Assembly (NCBI RefSeq): GCF_000814685.1
Contig: NZ_JXAC01000025.1
Location: 193 to 38,948 of the forward strand
Reading direction: 5' to 3'
DNA: 38,756 nucleotides
DNA from: Sphingobacterium sp. T2
GTDB taxonomy: Bacteria > Bacteroidota > Bacteroidia > Sphingobacteriales > Sphingobacteriaceae
The notes under the pieces were generated by a model. It saw only the letters and a program-made list of their open reading frames with translations. It was not told where the DNA came from and did not search any database. The position numbers and the translations under genes were made by a program. Below are positions 16,802 to 25,405 of the stretch, piece by piece (within the stretch, counting starts at the first letter, position 1; each line of letters opens with the position of its first letter).

Positions 16802-17263
16802 ATGGAATGGTATCTAAAAGTTGTCCGTGACAACTACGCCAACTTTAGTGGAAGAGCTCGCAGAAAAGAATTCTGGATGTTCGTCCTCTTCAATATTGTC
16901 ATCTCTTGGGGGCTCAACTTCATCGACAATATGCTCGGATTCACATATCAGACAGCCACCTGGCCCATACCGGGCTATGAGGAATGGTCTTCTTACTATT
17001 CACAGTCAGGATATCTAAGCTCCATATATTCCCTTGTCGTTTTTATTCCTTCTTTGGCTGTGAGTGTGCGTCGACTGCATGATATCGGCAAATCGGGTTT
17101 CAATCTGTTATGGAGCTTCGTATGCTGTATAGGATTTCTTTACCTGCTATATCTTTTCGTAACGGAAGGAGAAAGAGGAACGAATCAGTATGGTCCTGAT
17201 CCTAAGGAAGAAGATTTTTTCGACCAGAACCATCCGGACAACTCCTTCAAAAGAGAGCTCTAA
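16802..17263 (+). CDS. DUF805 family membrane protein (first copy)
   Basis: A 153-residue inner-membrane protein with three to four helices. It has the DUF805 hallmark at the start (YANFSGRARRKEFWMFVLFN), PSLAVSVRRLHDIGKSGFNLL in the middle, and a GTNQYGPDPKEED ending. DUF805 proteins are widespread with no settled function. A second copy lies 110 bases downstream. This copy carries a longer loop after the first helix (about residues 44-70) and a longer acidic tail than the second. Confidence 0.88.
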   Translation: MEWYLKVVRDNYANFSGRARRKEFWMFVLFNIVISWGLNFIDNMLGFTYQTATWPIPGYEEWSSYYSQSGYLSSIYSLVVFIPSLAVSVRRLHDIGKSGFNLLWSFVCCIGFLYLLYLFVTEGERGTNQYGPDPKEEDFFDQNHPDNSFKREL

Positions 17264-17373: not shown

Positions 17374-17757
17374 ATGGAAGAGTTAAAAGCATATTATTTG
17401 AAAGTTGTGATAAACAACTTTGCAAATTTTGACGGTAGAGCCGGACGCAAGGAGTTCTGGTATTTTACACTAATAAATATTGTGGTATTTGGAATATTAA
17501 GCATTTTGTCTGCCTTGTCAGACTTTCTTTTCTTCCTATATCCATTGTATGGGTTAGCTGTACTTATCCCTTCTTTGGCTGTCACGACACGGCGTCTGCA
17601 TGACACTAACCGTTCGGCGTGGTATATTATTTTGGCTTTCGTGCCTTTCGTCAACTTATATATTCTTTATCTCATGCTGTTGAAAGGAGATAAGGGCGAA
17701 AACAAATACGGCCCCGAACCTGATGAATCCATGCCGCAAAATACCGCTATTATATAA
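17374..17757 (+). CDS. DUF805 family membrane protein (second copy)
   Basis: A 127-residue paralogue of the preceding gene. It has FANFDGRAGRKEFWYFTLIN, PSLAVTTRRLHDTNRSAWYII and KGENKYGPEPDE. ATG 17374 (MEELKAYYLKVVINN) aligns with the start of the first copy; an in-frame start at 17350 is less likely. The two probably arose by tandem duplication and have since diverged. A strong bidirectional terminator follows. Confidence 0.88.
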   Translation: MEELKAYYLKVVINNFANFDGRAGRKEFWYFTLINIVVFGILSILSALSDFLFFLYPLYGLAVLIPSLAVTTRRLHDTNRSAWYIILAFVPFVNLYILYLMLLKGDKGENKYGPEPDESMPQNTAII

Positions 17758-19758: not shown

Positions 19759-20458
19759 TGTTAGAAATCATTTACCAAGACGAACATCTTGTTGCCATCA
19801 ACAAGCCACACGGCCTTTTGGTACATCGTTCATCCATCGCACAGGATGCCGATGAGACGGCCTTGCAGCTGCTGCGTGATCAGATAGGGATGACGGTGTA
19901 TCCGGCTCATCGTTTGGACCGCAAAACAGGAGGAATACTGCTCTTCTCTTTGGACAAGGCGACGGACCAAAAGACCCAGCAAATGTTTCAGGACAAGAAA
20001 ATGGACAAACGCTACCTAGCTTTGTTACGAGGCTTCTGCCTGAAGAGGGAACTATAGATTACTCCCTTACCAAGGCTAATACCAACAAGACGCAGGAAGC
20101 CATCACCCATTACCGCCGCCTAGCCATCGCTGAGATTGATGTTCCACAAGGAAAGTTCAACACATCACGATATTCTCTGGTAGAGGCAAACCCTATCACA
20201 GGACGTACACACCAGCTGCGGCGTCATTTCGCCCACATCATGCATCCCATCATTGGTGACAGACCCCACGGATGTAACAAACAAAACAAAATGTGGAAAG
20301 AAAAATTCGCCATGGAAACTATGCTTCTGCACGCCTCCGCTCTTTACTTTACACACCCTTGGACTAATCAATCGATTGCGATAAAAGCTGATTTACAGAG
20401 CGAATTCAAACGCTCTCTCGATATTTTGGGCATTAGCATTTCTGAAGTGGAGATATAA
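19758..20458 (+). CDS. truC: tRNA pseudouridine(65) synthase TruC-like, one frame break
   Basis: An RluA-superfamily pseudouridine synthase of about 233 residues, closest to TruC, which modifies U65 of tRNA. The N-terminal half has MLEIIYQDEHLVAINKPHGLLVHRSSIA and the catalytic-Asp motif AHRLDRKTGGILLFSLDK. The second half has NPITGRTHQLRRHFAHIMHPIIGD and MLLHASALYFTHP. One T is missing in the run at 20034-20035; adding it gives LLRGFLPEEGTIDYSL and joins the halves. The start overlaps the preceding stop. Everything conserved is intact after one repair, so a base-calling error is the simplest reading. Confidence 0.88.
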
Positions 20459-22674: not shown

Positions 22675-23166
22675 TTATAGGGTAATTTTCTTTTGCATCA
22701 CGTAATCATCCAAAATATATCCGTAATAAGGAATATCTACTTCTTCGACCACTTCAAAACCTTGCTTCAGATAGAAATAATATGCTTTGTTACCTCTATT
22801 TACGTTAAGCTCTAACGTATCCCTGCCCCTTTGGGTAGCCTCCTCTTCAGCAAAGCTTATCATAAGCCCTCCAAAGCCTTTTCCCTGTGAAGACGGTAAT
22901 AGATATAACTTTTCTATGCGTAAAATGTTTTCATTTTTGTTGGTTAAGGCTATAAACCTACCGGCACGTTTTCCTCATAGGCTATATAAAAAAGCTGTCC
23001 GTGCTGAATCGACTGCTGGATGGCCGTAACGGTATAGTTTTTTTCAAGCATAAATTCCATCTGATCCTCACTGAGACTGCCAAGTATAGGTAGGAAAATA
23101 TATTTTGTGGGCCAGCTCGTGGATGATAGATGCTTCTTCCAATGTGGCTACGCGAATCTCCAACAT
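22675..23166 (-). CDS. GNAT-family N-acetyltransferase, two frame breaks
   Basis: A GNAT acetyltransferase of about 163 residues. Repaired, it opens MLEIRVATLEEASIIHELAHKIYFPTY, then LGSLSEDQMEFMLEKNYTVTAIQQSI, and has the acetyl-CoA-binding motif LYLLPSSQGKGFGGLMISFAEE, followed by ELNVNRGNKAYYFYLKQGFEVVEE, typical of RimI/YhhY-like members. Breaks are at about 23085-23089 (one base extra or two missing near TATACTT) and 22954-22956 (one T missing in TTT of GGTTTTATAGCC). The substrate is not evident. It starts six bases after the thiamine-pyrophosphokinase-like gene. Confidence 0.82.
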
Positions 23167-23172
23167 GATGTT

Positions 23173-23733
23173 CTAAACTTCTTCTCCGACAATAATATAT
23201 TGATCAGTATTCATTTCCAAAGCTACGAAACCGTCCTGTTCGACTTGAAAGATGTTATCTTCCACATAGCGCAAGCCATTGAAAGATTTTATTTGTGAGG
23301 GCTCCACAAACATCCTGTCCCCTTTGGTCTTCCATTTTTCGTACTTCTCTCGGATGACAACATAGCGGATACCTTCGCAGAACAGAACGATATTTATTGC
23401 ATCAGCAAAAGACAAAATATGCTCGGAAATGGTTTTCGTTAGAATATTTACCGCCTTATGGCCATGCGCTATCAGATATTGAATGCTATCCGTCAGAAAG
23501 TCTTTCTCAGGTAGAATAACTTTTATATCTTCCTGATATTGGTCTGTGGATACACCATACAGTACATCTATCTTAATGTCCTGCATCAGAAAATAATCTA
23601 TCTGCTGTGGAGTGGTGATGAGGGTAGGGGACCACTCCAGAAGCTGTCCTAAATATTCTTCTGAAAGTGCTTGCACCTCTTCGACGACTAATGCAGGTTC
23701 CTGATTTTCGCGAACAATATGGTGTGAAGACAT
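23173..23733 (-). CDS. Thiamine-pyrophosphokinase-like protein lacking catalytic residues
   Basis: A 186-residue protein whose N-terminus (MSSHHIVRENQEPALVV), LLEWSPTLI and the LIAHGHKAVNI segment resemble Bacteroidota thiamine pyrophosphokinases. In true enzymes LEWSP is followed by a D-G-A motif, the next strand ends in G-D-x-D-S, and a Q/K-T-D motif precedes the helix. Here these positions read TTPQQIDYF, YGVSTDQYQ and EKDFLTDS, so the Mg/ATP-binding acidic residues are gone. The frame is intact over its length, with no homopolymer break. It is probably a non-catalytic relative rather than a decayed copy. The resemblance is from memory, not from a search. It sits between the M20 and GNAT genes, each six bases away. 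Confidence 0.6.
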   Translation of the reverse strand: MSSHHIVRENQEPALVVEEVQALSEEYLGQLLEWSPTLITTPQQIDYFLMQDIKIDVLYGVSTDQYQEDIKVILPEKDFLTDSIQYLIAHGHKAVNILTKTISEHILSFADAINIVLFCEGIRYVVIREKYEKWKTKGDRMFVEPSQIKSFNGLRYVEDNIFQVEQDGFVALEMNTDQYIIVGEEV

Positions 23734-23739
23734 GTTCTA

Positions 23740-24929
23740 TTATTGATTTAGTTGTGTGATGGCGATAAATGCCATAAGTCCCATTCCTATTTCCAAAGCG
23801 TCTTCGTCAATATCGAAGGTGGGCGTATGTACCGCAGACTGTATTCCTTTGGCTTTATTTCCTGTTCCAAGCCTGTAAAAACAAGCATTGGCAACCTGCG
23901 AATAGTAAGAAAAGTCTTCTGCGGCAGGCCATAGGTCCAAATCCACGACATTCTCTGCTCCTAAGTATTCTTCTGCTGCCTTTCGTGCCGCTGATGTAAG
24001 CTGAGGCTCATTGACCAAATAAGGATATCCTTTACGAACCTCGATGTCGCAAGAAGCTCCCATGCTTTCGGCTATGCCTGTAGCGATTTTTACGATTTTG
24101 TCGTGGGCTGCCGCCCTCCACTCTTCGTTGAATGTACGGAAGGTTCCCTCAAGATAAACTTCGTTAGGAATAATGTTTGTTGCCCCGTTGCCCACGATTT
24201 TTCCCCAAGACAATACCGTAGGGATACGTGGATCGGCAAATCGGCTTACCACCTGCTGCAAAGCAGATATAATCTGTGCCGTAATAGCTATAGGGTCTAT
24301 ATTTTGATGCGGTTGTGCTCCATGTCCTCCACGACCCCGTACAGTCATAAAGAGCTCATCGCAAGAAGCCATATACTGTCCGGCACGGAAACCCACTTTA
24401 CCTACTTCAATGAAAGGCATCACATGTTGGCCTATCACGGCGTTAGGCTCCGGATTTGTCAGCACGCCCTCCTTAATCATCAGCGAAGCTCCTCCCGGCA
24501 GTTTTTCTTCCCCCGGTTGGAAGATAAGTTTTACCGTTCCACCGAATTTAGACTTCAGTGCATACAATATTTTGCTACGCCAAGCAGGGAGGAAGTATGT
24601 ACATCATGACCACAGGCATGCATGACACCTTTATTTTGCGAGCCGTAGGGGCGTCCTTCCACCTCTGTGATAGGAAGAGCATCCATGTCTGCACGTAGGG
24701 CAATAACCTTATCCGACGGTAAATCGCCTTTCAAGAGCGCTACGACTCCCGTATTAGCCATGGAAGTATAAGGAATACCTATCTTGTCTAATACAGCCTT
24801 TACAAATGCTGACGTATTATACTCTTCGAAAGAAAGTTCCGGATTACGGTGTAGGTGACGGCGAATATCAACGATTTCAGCAAAAAATTCTTTCGCTAAT
24901 TGCTGAATTTCATGCTTTATATTGGTCAT
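23740..24929 (-). CDS. M20-family amidohydrolase, one frame break
   Basis: A zinc-dependent M20/M40 peptidase (N-acyl-amino-acid or hippurate hydrolase type) of about 396 residues. It has RRHLHRNPELSFEEYNTS, ALRADMDALPI and HACGHDVHTSSLLGVAK in the first half. The second half has IFQPGEEKLPGGASLMI, RGRGGHGAQPHQNIDPI (dimerisation-domain His) and AAEDFSYYSQ, with zinc ligands and the catalytic Glu-Glu pair in place. The break is in the T-run (24570-24573 on the plus strand): one A missing in the coding strand; adding it gives GVAKILYALKSKFGG. ATG 24929 was chosen since it starts the family-typical leader (MTNIKHEIQQLAKEFFAE); ATG 24950 overlaps the upstream stop. Export signals are absent, so it is likely cytoplasmic. 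Confidence 0.88.
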
Positions 24930-24940
24930 GATAAAATGTT

Positions 24941-25405
24941 TTATTCCCAAACCCAGATGTCTTCCTGAAAGACAAATACGGATTTGTACTGAGAACGTAT
25001 GGTTCGCATAAATTCATTAGCCTGGCTACGGCTGAGGAAATCTCCTACCTTAACCCTGTAATTAGGCTCCGAATAGGTGATATAAGTATCTATGTCCGGA
25101 TATTGGCTTCGGAAGCGGGCCTGCACGGCATAAGCTTCACTTCGATTGGATCCGGAATAGATCTGTACTCTGAAACCCTTTCTTCTAACCCGGGTAGCTT
25201 TGGCCTTATCAACAACCTTAGGTCCTAGGCTTATCAATCGAGGTGTTGTAGGATTGATTTCATTAGCAGCTCTGAAGTTTTGCAGCAAAGTAATAAGCGT
25301 ATCCTTTTGAACTTCTACTGCATTACTTTCCTGCGCCTTTACATCTATAGATATTAGGCATGCTAAAGTGCTCCAAAATAAAATCAATCCATTTTTTTGC
25401 AACAT
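24941..25405 (-). CDS. SPOR-domain exported protein
   Basis: A 154-residue protein with an N-terminal signal sequence (LILFWSTLACLISIDVKAQ) and a C-terminal SPOR domain (KGFRVQIYSGSNRSEAYAVQARFRSQYPD, YRVKVGDFLSRSQANEFMRTIRSQYKSVFVFQEDI). SPOR domains bind glycan strands stripped of stem peptides, as at division sites. It lies 32 bases after secA on the same strand. The protein is likely periplasmic or outer-membrane-linked. Confidence 0.88.
   Translation of the reverse strand: MLQKNGLILFWSTLACLISIDVKAQESNAVEVQKDTLITLLQNFRAANEINPTTPRLISLGPKVVDKAKATRVRRKGFRVQIYSGSNRSEAYAVQARFRSQYPDIDTYITYSEPNYRVKVGDFLSRSQANEFMRTIRSQYKSVFVFQEDIWVWE

Follow-up and report, generated by a model that had tools for sequence, protein, structure and literature searches.

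Thiamine pyrophosphokinases (TPKs), as defined by TIGR01378, by PF04263 with PF04265, and by structures such as 2omk of Bacteroides thetaiotaomicron, are the reference for the protein described here. The latter is encoded by an open reading frame (ORF) at nt 23173–23733 (minus strand) of the window, i.e. the whole 38,756 nt stretch analysed (contig NZ_JXAC01000025.1 of Sphingobacterium sp. T2), and has an ATG start and an intact frame of 186 amino acids (aa). It shares the fold of canonical TPKs, with 170 aligned residues, but its family keeps only 0–3 of 11 active-site positions, lacks the T-G-R-x-A-D-H loop, finds no profile match, and carries an N-terminal arm that is absent from 12 canonical TPKs (the 10 top TIGR01378 matches and 2 from family f63). 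A group of active TPKs (e.g. L063, L065) also bears this arm and the E-W-x-P motif, and most of them the K-x-D and K-W residues, but these proteins, unlike the window family, retain the active site in full and score over the cut-off of TIGR01378.

The one precedent met with for the conversion of a TPK-like fold into a regulator is SteA, a cell-division regulator of Corynebacterium and Mycobacterium that has SteB as its partner (PMC12977500, from the part of the paper available). The SteA homodimer is described there as having retained a conserved pocket that resembles the TPK nucleotide site, unlike the window protein, and that part of the paper makes no mention of an arm such as that of the window family. 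The SteA structure 9hmz aligned to the model of the window protein with Z 6.5 over 117 residues, far below the TPKs; the window protein has no Pfam match over cut-off. No report of a TPK pseudoenzyme in Bacteroidota was found in the open-access literature. In the current study the window protein is considered to be, with fair probability, a dead descendant of an arm-bearing Bacteroidota TPK, retained throughout its family for a role other than catalysis.

Fold and loss of the active site

Profiles are silent on the relationship to TPK. A search of the ORF against Pfam and NCBIfam listed no TPK model at E values up to 1, the cut-offs of TIGR01378 and PF04263 were not reached, and neither the ORF nor the family alignment (A1) recovered a TPK from Pfam, NCBIfam or the PDB sequences. 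The preliminary description, which had called the ORF a maintained TPK relative without catalytic acids, proposed a profile search as a check; taken alone, its outcome would speak against that identification, and the homology consequently rests on the fold and on comparison with the arm-bearing active TPKs.

An AlphaFold model, made from an alignment of the window protein and 62 homologues, has a pLDDT (predicted local distance difference test) of 90.4 and a pTM (predicted template modelling score) of 0.83, the mean pLDDT of residues 1–10 being 49, i.e. the arm is poorly ordered. The best Foldseek match in the PDB was 2omk (E 1.1e-11), and 16 of the first 20 matches are titled TPK, the other four being chains of 3cq9 (lp_1622), which is also matched, by sequence, by an active TPK. 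With VIA-align, 2omk gave Z 15.8 and a root-mean-square deviation of 2.7 over model residues 11–186; ranks 1–14 (Z 15.8 to 11.6) are all titled TPK except 3cq9, and the next is SteA. The window protein aligned with L065 at E 7e-31 (40% identity over 156 columns) and with L063 at E 2e-29, identities to the two ranging from 34 to 40%. On the model, a TPK fold for the window protein is well supported.

Active-site retention was tallied at 11 positions (L063 numbering) in 139 degenerate sequences, 131 from the window's family (f1) and 8 from family f8, and in 62 active ones; four exact duplicates and two proteins with TTG or GTG starts (L109, L113) were left out of the f1 tallies. None of the positions is kept in 66 degenerate sequences, one in 55, two in 17 and three in a single sequence; all 11 are kept in 59 of the active sequences and 10 in the remaining 3. 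The window protein retains only G60 among D42, G60-D61-x-D63, T89-D90 and R115-x-D117-H118. Across the degenerate set D42 survives in 26, D61 in 28 and D63 in 11, and R115, D117, H118 and N196 in none of the 139; the T-G-R-R-A-D-H loop is gone in all degenerate members inspected, and its R-x-D-H is kept in none. The position, open frame and sequence landmarks given in the preliminary description are all present, and the loss of catalytic motifs that it reported was borne out: the Asp residues, T-D of K-T-D and the loop are gone, with only Gly of G-D-x-D kept. Loss of the active site is well supported by these comparisons, and the window protein is predicted to be catalytically dead. The Ser-Asn pair of the thiamine (vitamin B1) binding region has likewise been lost, with Ser in 6/139 and Asn in 0/139 degenerate sequences (Ile and Phe in the window protein), and a ligand-binding role with thiamine itself as the ligand is not favoured.

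Parent enzymes and thiamine genes

In a phylum sample of 296 genomes the family profile matched 35, of which 20 pass TIGR01378 at the same place (active carrier G469 being classed by TIGR01378 alone); the other 15 carriers are degenerate (8 f1, 7 f8), and their genomes have no TIGR01378 match. Both L063 and L065 score over the cut-offs of TIGR01378 and of the two Pfam models for TPK. At class level a match was found in 92 of 395 genomes: 15 belong to f1, 15 were already included, the two weakest (G311, G532) were omitted and 60 sequences were fetched. All but two of these 60 keep D42, G60-D61-D63, D90 and D117-H118, the two being L201 (f8), which is degenerate, and L259, which is a fragment. 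The retention of catalytic Asp residues in orthologues, named earlier as a finding that would count against a pseudoenzyme, is divided: as an active site they are lost in the 139 degenerate sequences and kept in relatives from other families, which are taken as parent enzymes and not as members of the degenerate family. Judged from sequence, the degenerate proteins derive from a TPK subfamily, found in other families of Bacteroidia, that combines an intact active site with the N-terminal arm.

A quick tree was made from 35 of the 131 f1 rows, 7 f8 rows, 19 active rows and, as outgroup, 3 of 6 rows intended. It groups f1 with f8 (SH-aLRT, the Shimodaira–Hasegawa-like approximate likelihood ratio, 99), the branch that leads to them being long, at 1.43 changes per column, but the alternative that groups f8 with the active proteins was not rejected (approximately unbiased test, p-AU 0.179). 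When the active rows were constrained to form one group, the resulting tree was 9 log units better than the free tree, indicating that the tree search was not exhaustive. The degenerate form may accordingly have arisen once or twice.

A second, complete TPK had been suggested as something to look for in the window genome; none was found over cut-off, the best PF04263 match being of 12.4 bits in a 977-aa frame and TIGR01378 giving no match. Across 251 f1 genomes TIGR01378 gave four weak matches and none over cut-off, which raises the question of how imported thiamine, if it is imported, is trapped in those genomes in which the pseudo-TPK follows PnuC/PnuT-like and TonB-receptor-like genes (see below). 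ThiL was over cut-off in 97 of 101 f1 genomes. As a side observation, the window genome has a 540-aa ORF (G000:C237, L261:502–2124) that combines a TMP-TENI domain with an N-terminal part resembling ThiL; this is the only TMP-TENI match over cut-off in the genome, and a normal ThiE may be missing.

The N-terminal arm and residues shared with active enzymes

Of the columns conserved to at least 90% in the 62 active sequences, 21 are also conserved to at least 90% in the 139 degenerate ones, 9 are intermediate, and 35 fall below 30%, the last group including all 11 active-site positions. The 21 shared columns are M1–H5, Q11–L15, L31–W34, P36, D56, L98, N107, K153, G202 and E217 (L063 numbering). 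Two further residues are tighter in the degenerate set, K54 (139/139 vs 54/62 active) and W154 (138/139 vs 47/62). The arm consensus, M-S-S-H-H-x-V-x-E/D-x-Q-E-P-A, together with E33-W34-x-P36, is found in the active arm-bearing TPKs of other Bacteroidia families, and the window protein has the arm and the E-W-x-P and K-x-D residues of this lineage. Among the 12 canonical TPKs the active site is kept (T89 in 11) and D56 is present in 10, but the H-H arm, E33 and W34 occur in none.

In a set of 157 genes picked by the pattern M-x-H-H, the start codon lies exactly at M-S-S-H-H in every case, with no earlier in-frame ATG in 151; L109 and L113, outside this set, have the same arm behind TTG and GTG starts. 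In the AlphaFold model the conserved residues precede strands 1 (residues 14–17), 2 (38–40) and 3 (57–59). The edge before the strands of a parallel alpha/beta domain is the one opposite the catalytic ends, so that the arm and the patch formed by these residues are probably located at the sheet edge remote from the active site.

The conservation of charged residues and of His could also mean that a new enzyme has been built on the old fold, with catalysis moved elsewhere, for example to H4, H5, E12, E33, K54 and D56. The same residues are, however, conserved in active TPKs with a normal active site, showing that they do not form a replacement active site that came with the loss, and the arm is poorly ordered in the model; a relocated active site is accordingly regarded as unlikely. 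Another reading concerns the arm alone. After removal of Met1, which is expected before Ser, the protein would start with Ser-Ser-His, and X-X-His is the pattern of amino-terminal Cu(II)/Ni(II) sites. The invariant M-S-S-H-H start agrees with this, as do the variants S-H-H-V (3) and S-S-H-L (1) among 51 arm-bearing class-level proteins, which keep His in third place, but the S-S-N-H variant (1 of 51) does not, and the conservation extends to Q11-E12-P13-A14, which would be superfluous for such a site. A metal-binding terminus is, on balance, rather improbable.

Distribution and selection

By protein search a homologue is present in 277 of 301 genomes drawn from f1, that of the window included. 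The window genome has a single copy; second homologue matches occur in G208, G244, G256 and G141. The best 80 of 544 confirmed named places belong to Pedobacter, Mucilaginibacter, Daejeonella, other Sphingobacteriaceae/Sphingobacteriales and a few unplaced Bacteroidetes, and some f1 sequences are 93–95% identical to sequences from these named loci, on which grounds f1 is very likely Sphingobacteriaceae.

The ratio of non-synonymous to synonymous rates (dN/dS) was estimated for 30 non-overlapping pairs of degenerate f1 genes. In the 21 pairs with dS below 2 (nine saturated pairs were excluded) the median was 0.10 and the maximum 0.48, the latter from a pair with dS 0.05. These values refer to relatives, as the window's own gene is only about 61% identical to its nearest match in the draw and too distant for the calculation. 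Among these relatives purifying selection on the gene is well supported.

One alternative, that the ORF is what remains of a former TPK gene in decay and stands open here by chance, has in its favour that both flanking genes are broken in the assembly and that the active site is gone. Yet the breadth of retention, the low dN/dS and the 21 columns conserved to at least 90% in 139 sequences lead to its rejection at family level, and the reading as a whole is very improbable. Loss of catalytic residues, purifying selection among relatives and wide retention, the marks of a pseudoenzyme, are found together, and the maintained, TPK-derived pseudoenzyme of the preliminary description is upheld. The open frame from which maintenance had been argued is real but weak proof by itself; maintenance is shown by the comparison across genomes.

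A possible retained function

Three classes of protein can now be distinguished: those with just the active site, those with both active site and arm, and those with just the arm. This distribution suggests that the arm carries a separate function which has outlived catalysis, and the retained function most likely resides in the arm and the patch. On the reading that best accounts for the three classes, the ancestral enzyme would have combined thiamine phosphorylation with a second function, placed on the arm (residues 1–15) and on the patch before strands 1, 2 and 3. Phosphorylation would then have become dispensable, perhaps since ThiL makes thiamine diphosphate (ThDP) from thiamine monophosphate, and the second function would have stayed. 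The likeliest mechanism is docking, in which the poorly ordered arm would bind a partner protein and regulate or scaffold it; candidate partners are the coupled GNAT acetyltransferase and the ThiE-like neighbour found in many loci (see below).

It is conceivable, and about as easily doubted as believed, that the arm-bearing Bacteroidota TPKs are bifunctional, the second task depending on the arm and the E-W-x-P/K-x-D patch and having outlived catalysis in f1 and f8. If true, the two functions would have been separated in nature, with entire families left with the second one only. The three classes also amount to a natural three-way experiment, which makes a second, concealed role of a housekeeping enzyme open to direct testing.

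Several observations weigh against a retained docking function. The arm might be required for folding or for dimer formation instead of docking, and the patch is deduced from the secondary structure of a model. The gene is not needed everywhere in the family, as 24 of the 301 f1 genomes have no homologue match, and 52 of 79 named loci have no GNAT gene directly downstream. ThiL is over cut-off in all 7 f8 and all 20 active-carrier genomes searched, so that ThiL alone cannot explain the loss of catalysis. An Rfam scan of 11 of the 80 named loci found no family at gathering score, the thiamine pyrophosphate riboswitch included. Of the 60 class-level sequences, 46 have the exact S-S-H-H arm, 5 have variants and 9 have none; the 62-row active set excludes 16 of the 60, with absent, altered or unclear N-termini, and arm conservation in that set is therefore partly an effect of how the set was chosen. 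The same is true of the 157/157 start-codon count, given the M-x-H-H pattern by which those genes were picked.

Gene neighbourhood

The window and six same-genus relatives share the order secA, SPOR, M20, pseudo-TPK, GNAT (M20 and GNAT being broken in the window). Elsewhere the surroundings differ, and the gene is not a feature of the secA run in which it had been placed but one that occurs family-wide. Neighbours were counted in 79 of the 80 named loci, in which the gene could be placed (L094 is the exception). The immediate upstream gene is of the ThiE/TenI family in 39 and M20 in only 1 (L112, Mucilaginibacter hurinus). GNAT lies directly downstream in 27, in 14 of which it overlaps the pseudo-TPK by four bases. 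In the window, six bases separate the M20 stop (23740) from the pseudo-TPK, and a further six separate the latter from the start of the GNAT frame (23166). The spacing reported earlier is thus confirmed on both sides; the tie to GNAT that it was taken to indicate recurs in the 27 loci, and that to M20 holds in all six same-genus relatives compared but hardly beyond them.

Further upstream and on the same strand, some loci carry genes for a PafA phosphatase, a PnuC/PnuT-like transporter (PnuT rather than PnuC, as the context suggests) and what we take to be a TonB receptor (cluster 5). Among 7 active loci compared, 4 (L184–L187) likewise have a TonB-receptor-like gene close to the active TPK. 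In most genomes of gut Bacteroidetes, OMthi, pnuT and the kinase tnr3 form one operon (PMC5613172, from the part of the study available), and in some genera the degenerate gene accordingly occupies the expected place of the live kinase.

Such neighbours, with the ThiE-like gene, would suit a sensor in which binding of thiamine or ThDP persists and serves to regulate uptake or synthesis. Against this stand the loss of the Ser-Asn pair of the B1-binding region, the neighbours in the window's own genus (secA, SPOR, M20 and GNAT), and the 30 of 79 named loci that carry none of the five upstream markers counted, and a thiamine sensor is considered unlikely. For the preferred reading, a dead enzyme with a retained non-catalytic function, a connection with the uptake or use of thiamine would be plausible, least so in the window's own genus.

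The ThiE-like neighbour may itself be altered. In 43 sequences the place of Lys61 (presumed numbering of Bacillus subtilis ThiE) is taken by Leu, Phe or Met in 42 and by a gap in 1; that of Asn92 is Thr in 40, and that of Asp93 is Asn in 32 and Asp in 8. These three residues we assume to have catalytic or metal-site roles, and the neighbour is possibly a second altered thiamine enzyme of the cluster (e.g. L096, L098, L106). Promoter and terminator scans were near chance level. Separately, in L091, L098 and L106 the PnuC/PnuT-like gene upstream of the pseudo-TPK is followed by an acyl-CoA-dehydrogenase-like one, and all 13 loci with either of these genes contain both.

Features of the window

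Coordinates are collected in Table 1. Other genes of the window, presumably secA, SPOR, RluA-type and rhodanese genes, were named by recognition.

Table 1. Location of the pseudo-TPK, its diagnostic codons and its flanking genes in the window.
Feature	Position (nt)	Strand	Basis
Degenerate TPK-fold protein, predicted dead by sequence, M-S-S-H-H start	23173..23733	(-)	Sequence, AlphaFold, Foldseek, VIA
Codons 1–15, N-terminal arm MSSHHIVRENQEPAL	23689..23733	(-)	M1–H5 and Q11–L15 at least 90% conserved in active and degenerate sets
Codons 33–36, E-W-S-P, just before strand 2	23626..23637	(-)	E33, W34 and P36 conserved to at least 90% in active and degenerate sets
Codon 42, Pro; Asp in active TPKs	23608..23610	(-)	
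Codons 54–56, K-I-D, just before strand 3	23566..23574	(-)	K54 in 139/139 degenerate, 54/62 active
Codons 60–63, G-V-S-T; G-D-F-D in active TPKs	23545..23556	(-)	
Codons 78–79, D-F; T-D of K-T-D in active TPKs	23497..23502	(-)	
Codons 101–102, approximate place of the missing T-G-R-R-A-D-H segment of active TPKs	23428..23433	(-)	
Codons 133–134, K-W	23332..23337	(-)	K conserved to at least 90% in active and degenerate sets; W in 138/139 degenerate, 47/62 active
GNAT acetyltransferase frame, three internal stops, six bases downstream	22675..23166	(-)	
M20 amidohydrolase, upstream, two frames in window	23740..24950	(-)	Single frame in 6 same-genus relatives

Frame breaks occur in the M20 gene (nt 24555–24576), in an RluA-type gene (nt 20033–20042) and, as three internal stops, in the GNAT frame, all of which have whole versions in relatives. 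The statement that neighbours of the ORF are broken is right for its two flanks but does not extend to the region: of 16 proteins from the relative L197 that match the window, 3 fall on broken genes (RluA-type, M20, GNAT) and 13 on genes that read through. ThiL of the same assembly, outside the window (G000:C90:3696–4476), is also split over two frames, relatives again having a whole version, so that the breaks in M20, RluA-type, GNAT and ThiL are probably assembly errors. Apart from these, the window carries a tandem pair of genes (nt 16802–17248 and 17392–17721) that both match one 155-aa L197 protein, with 65% and 43% identity, respectively.
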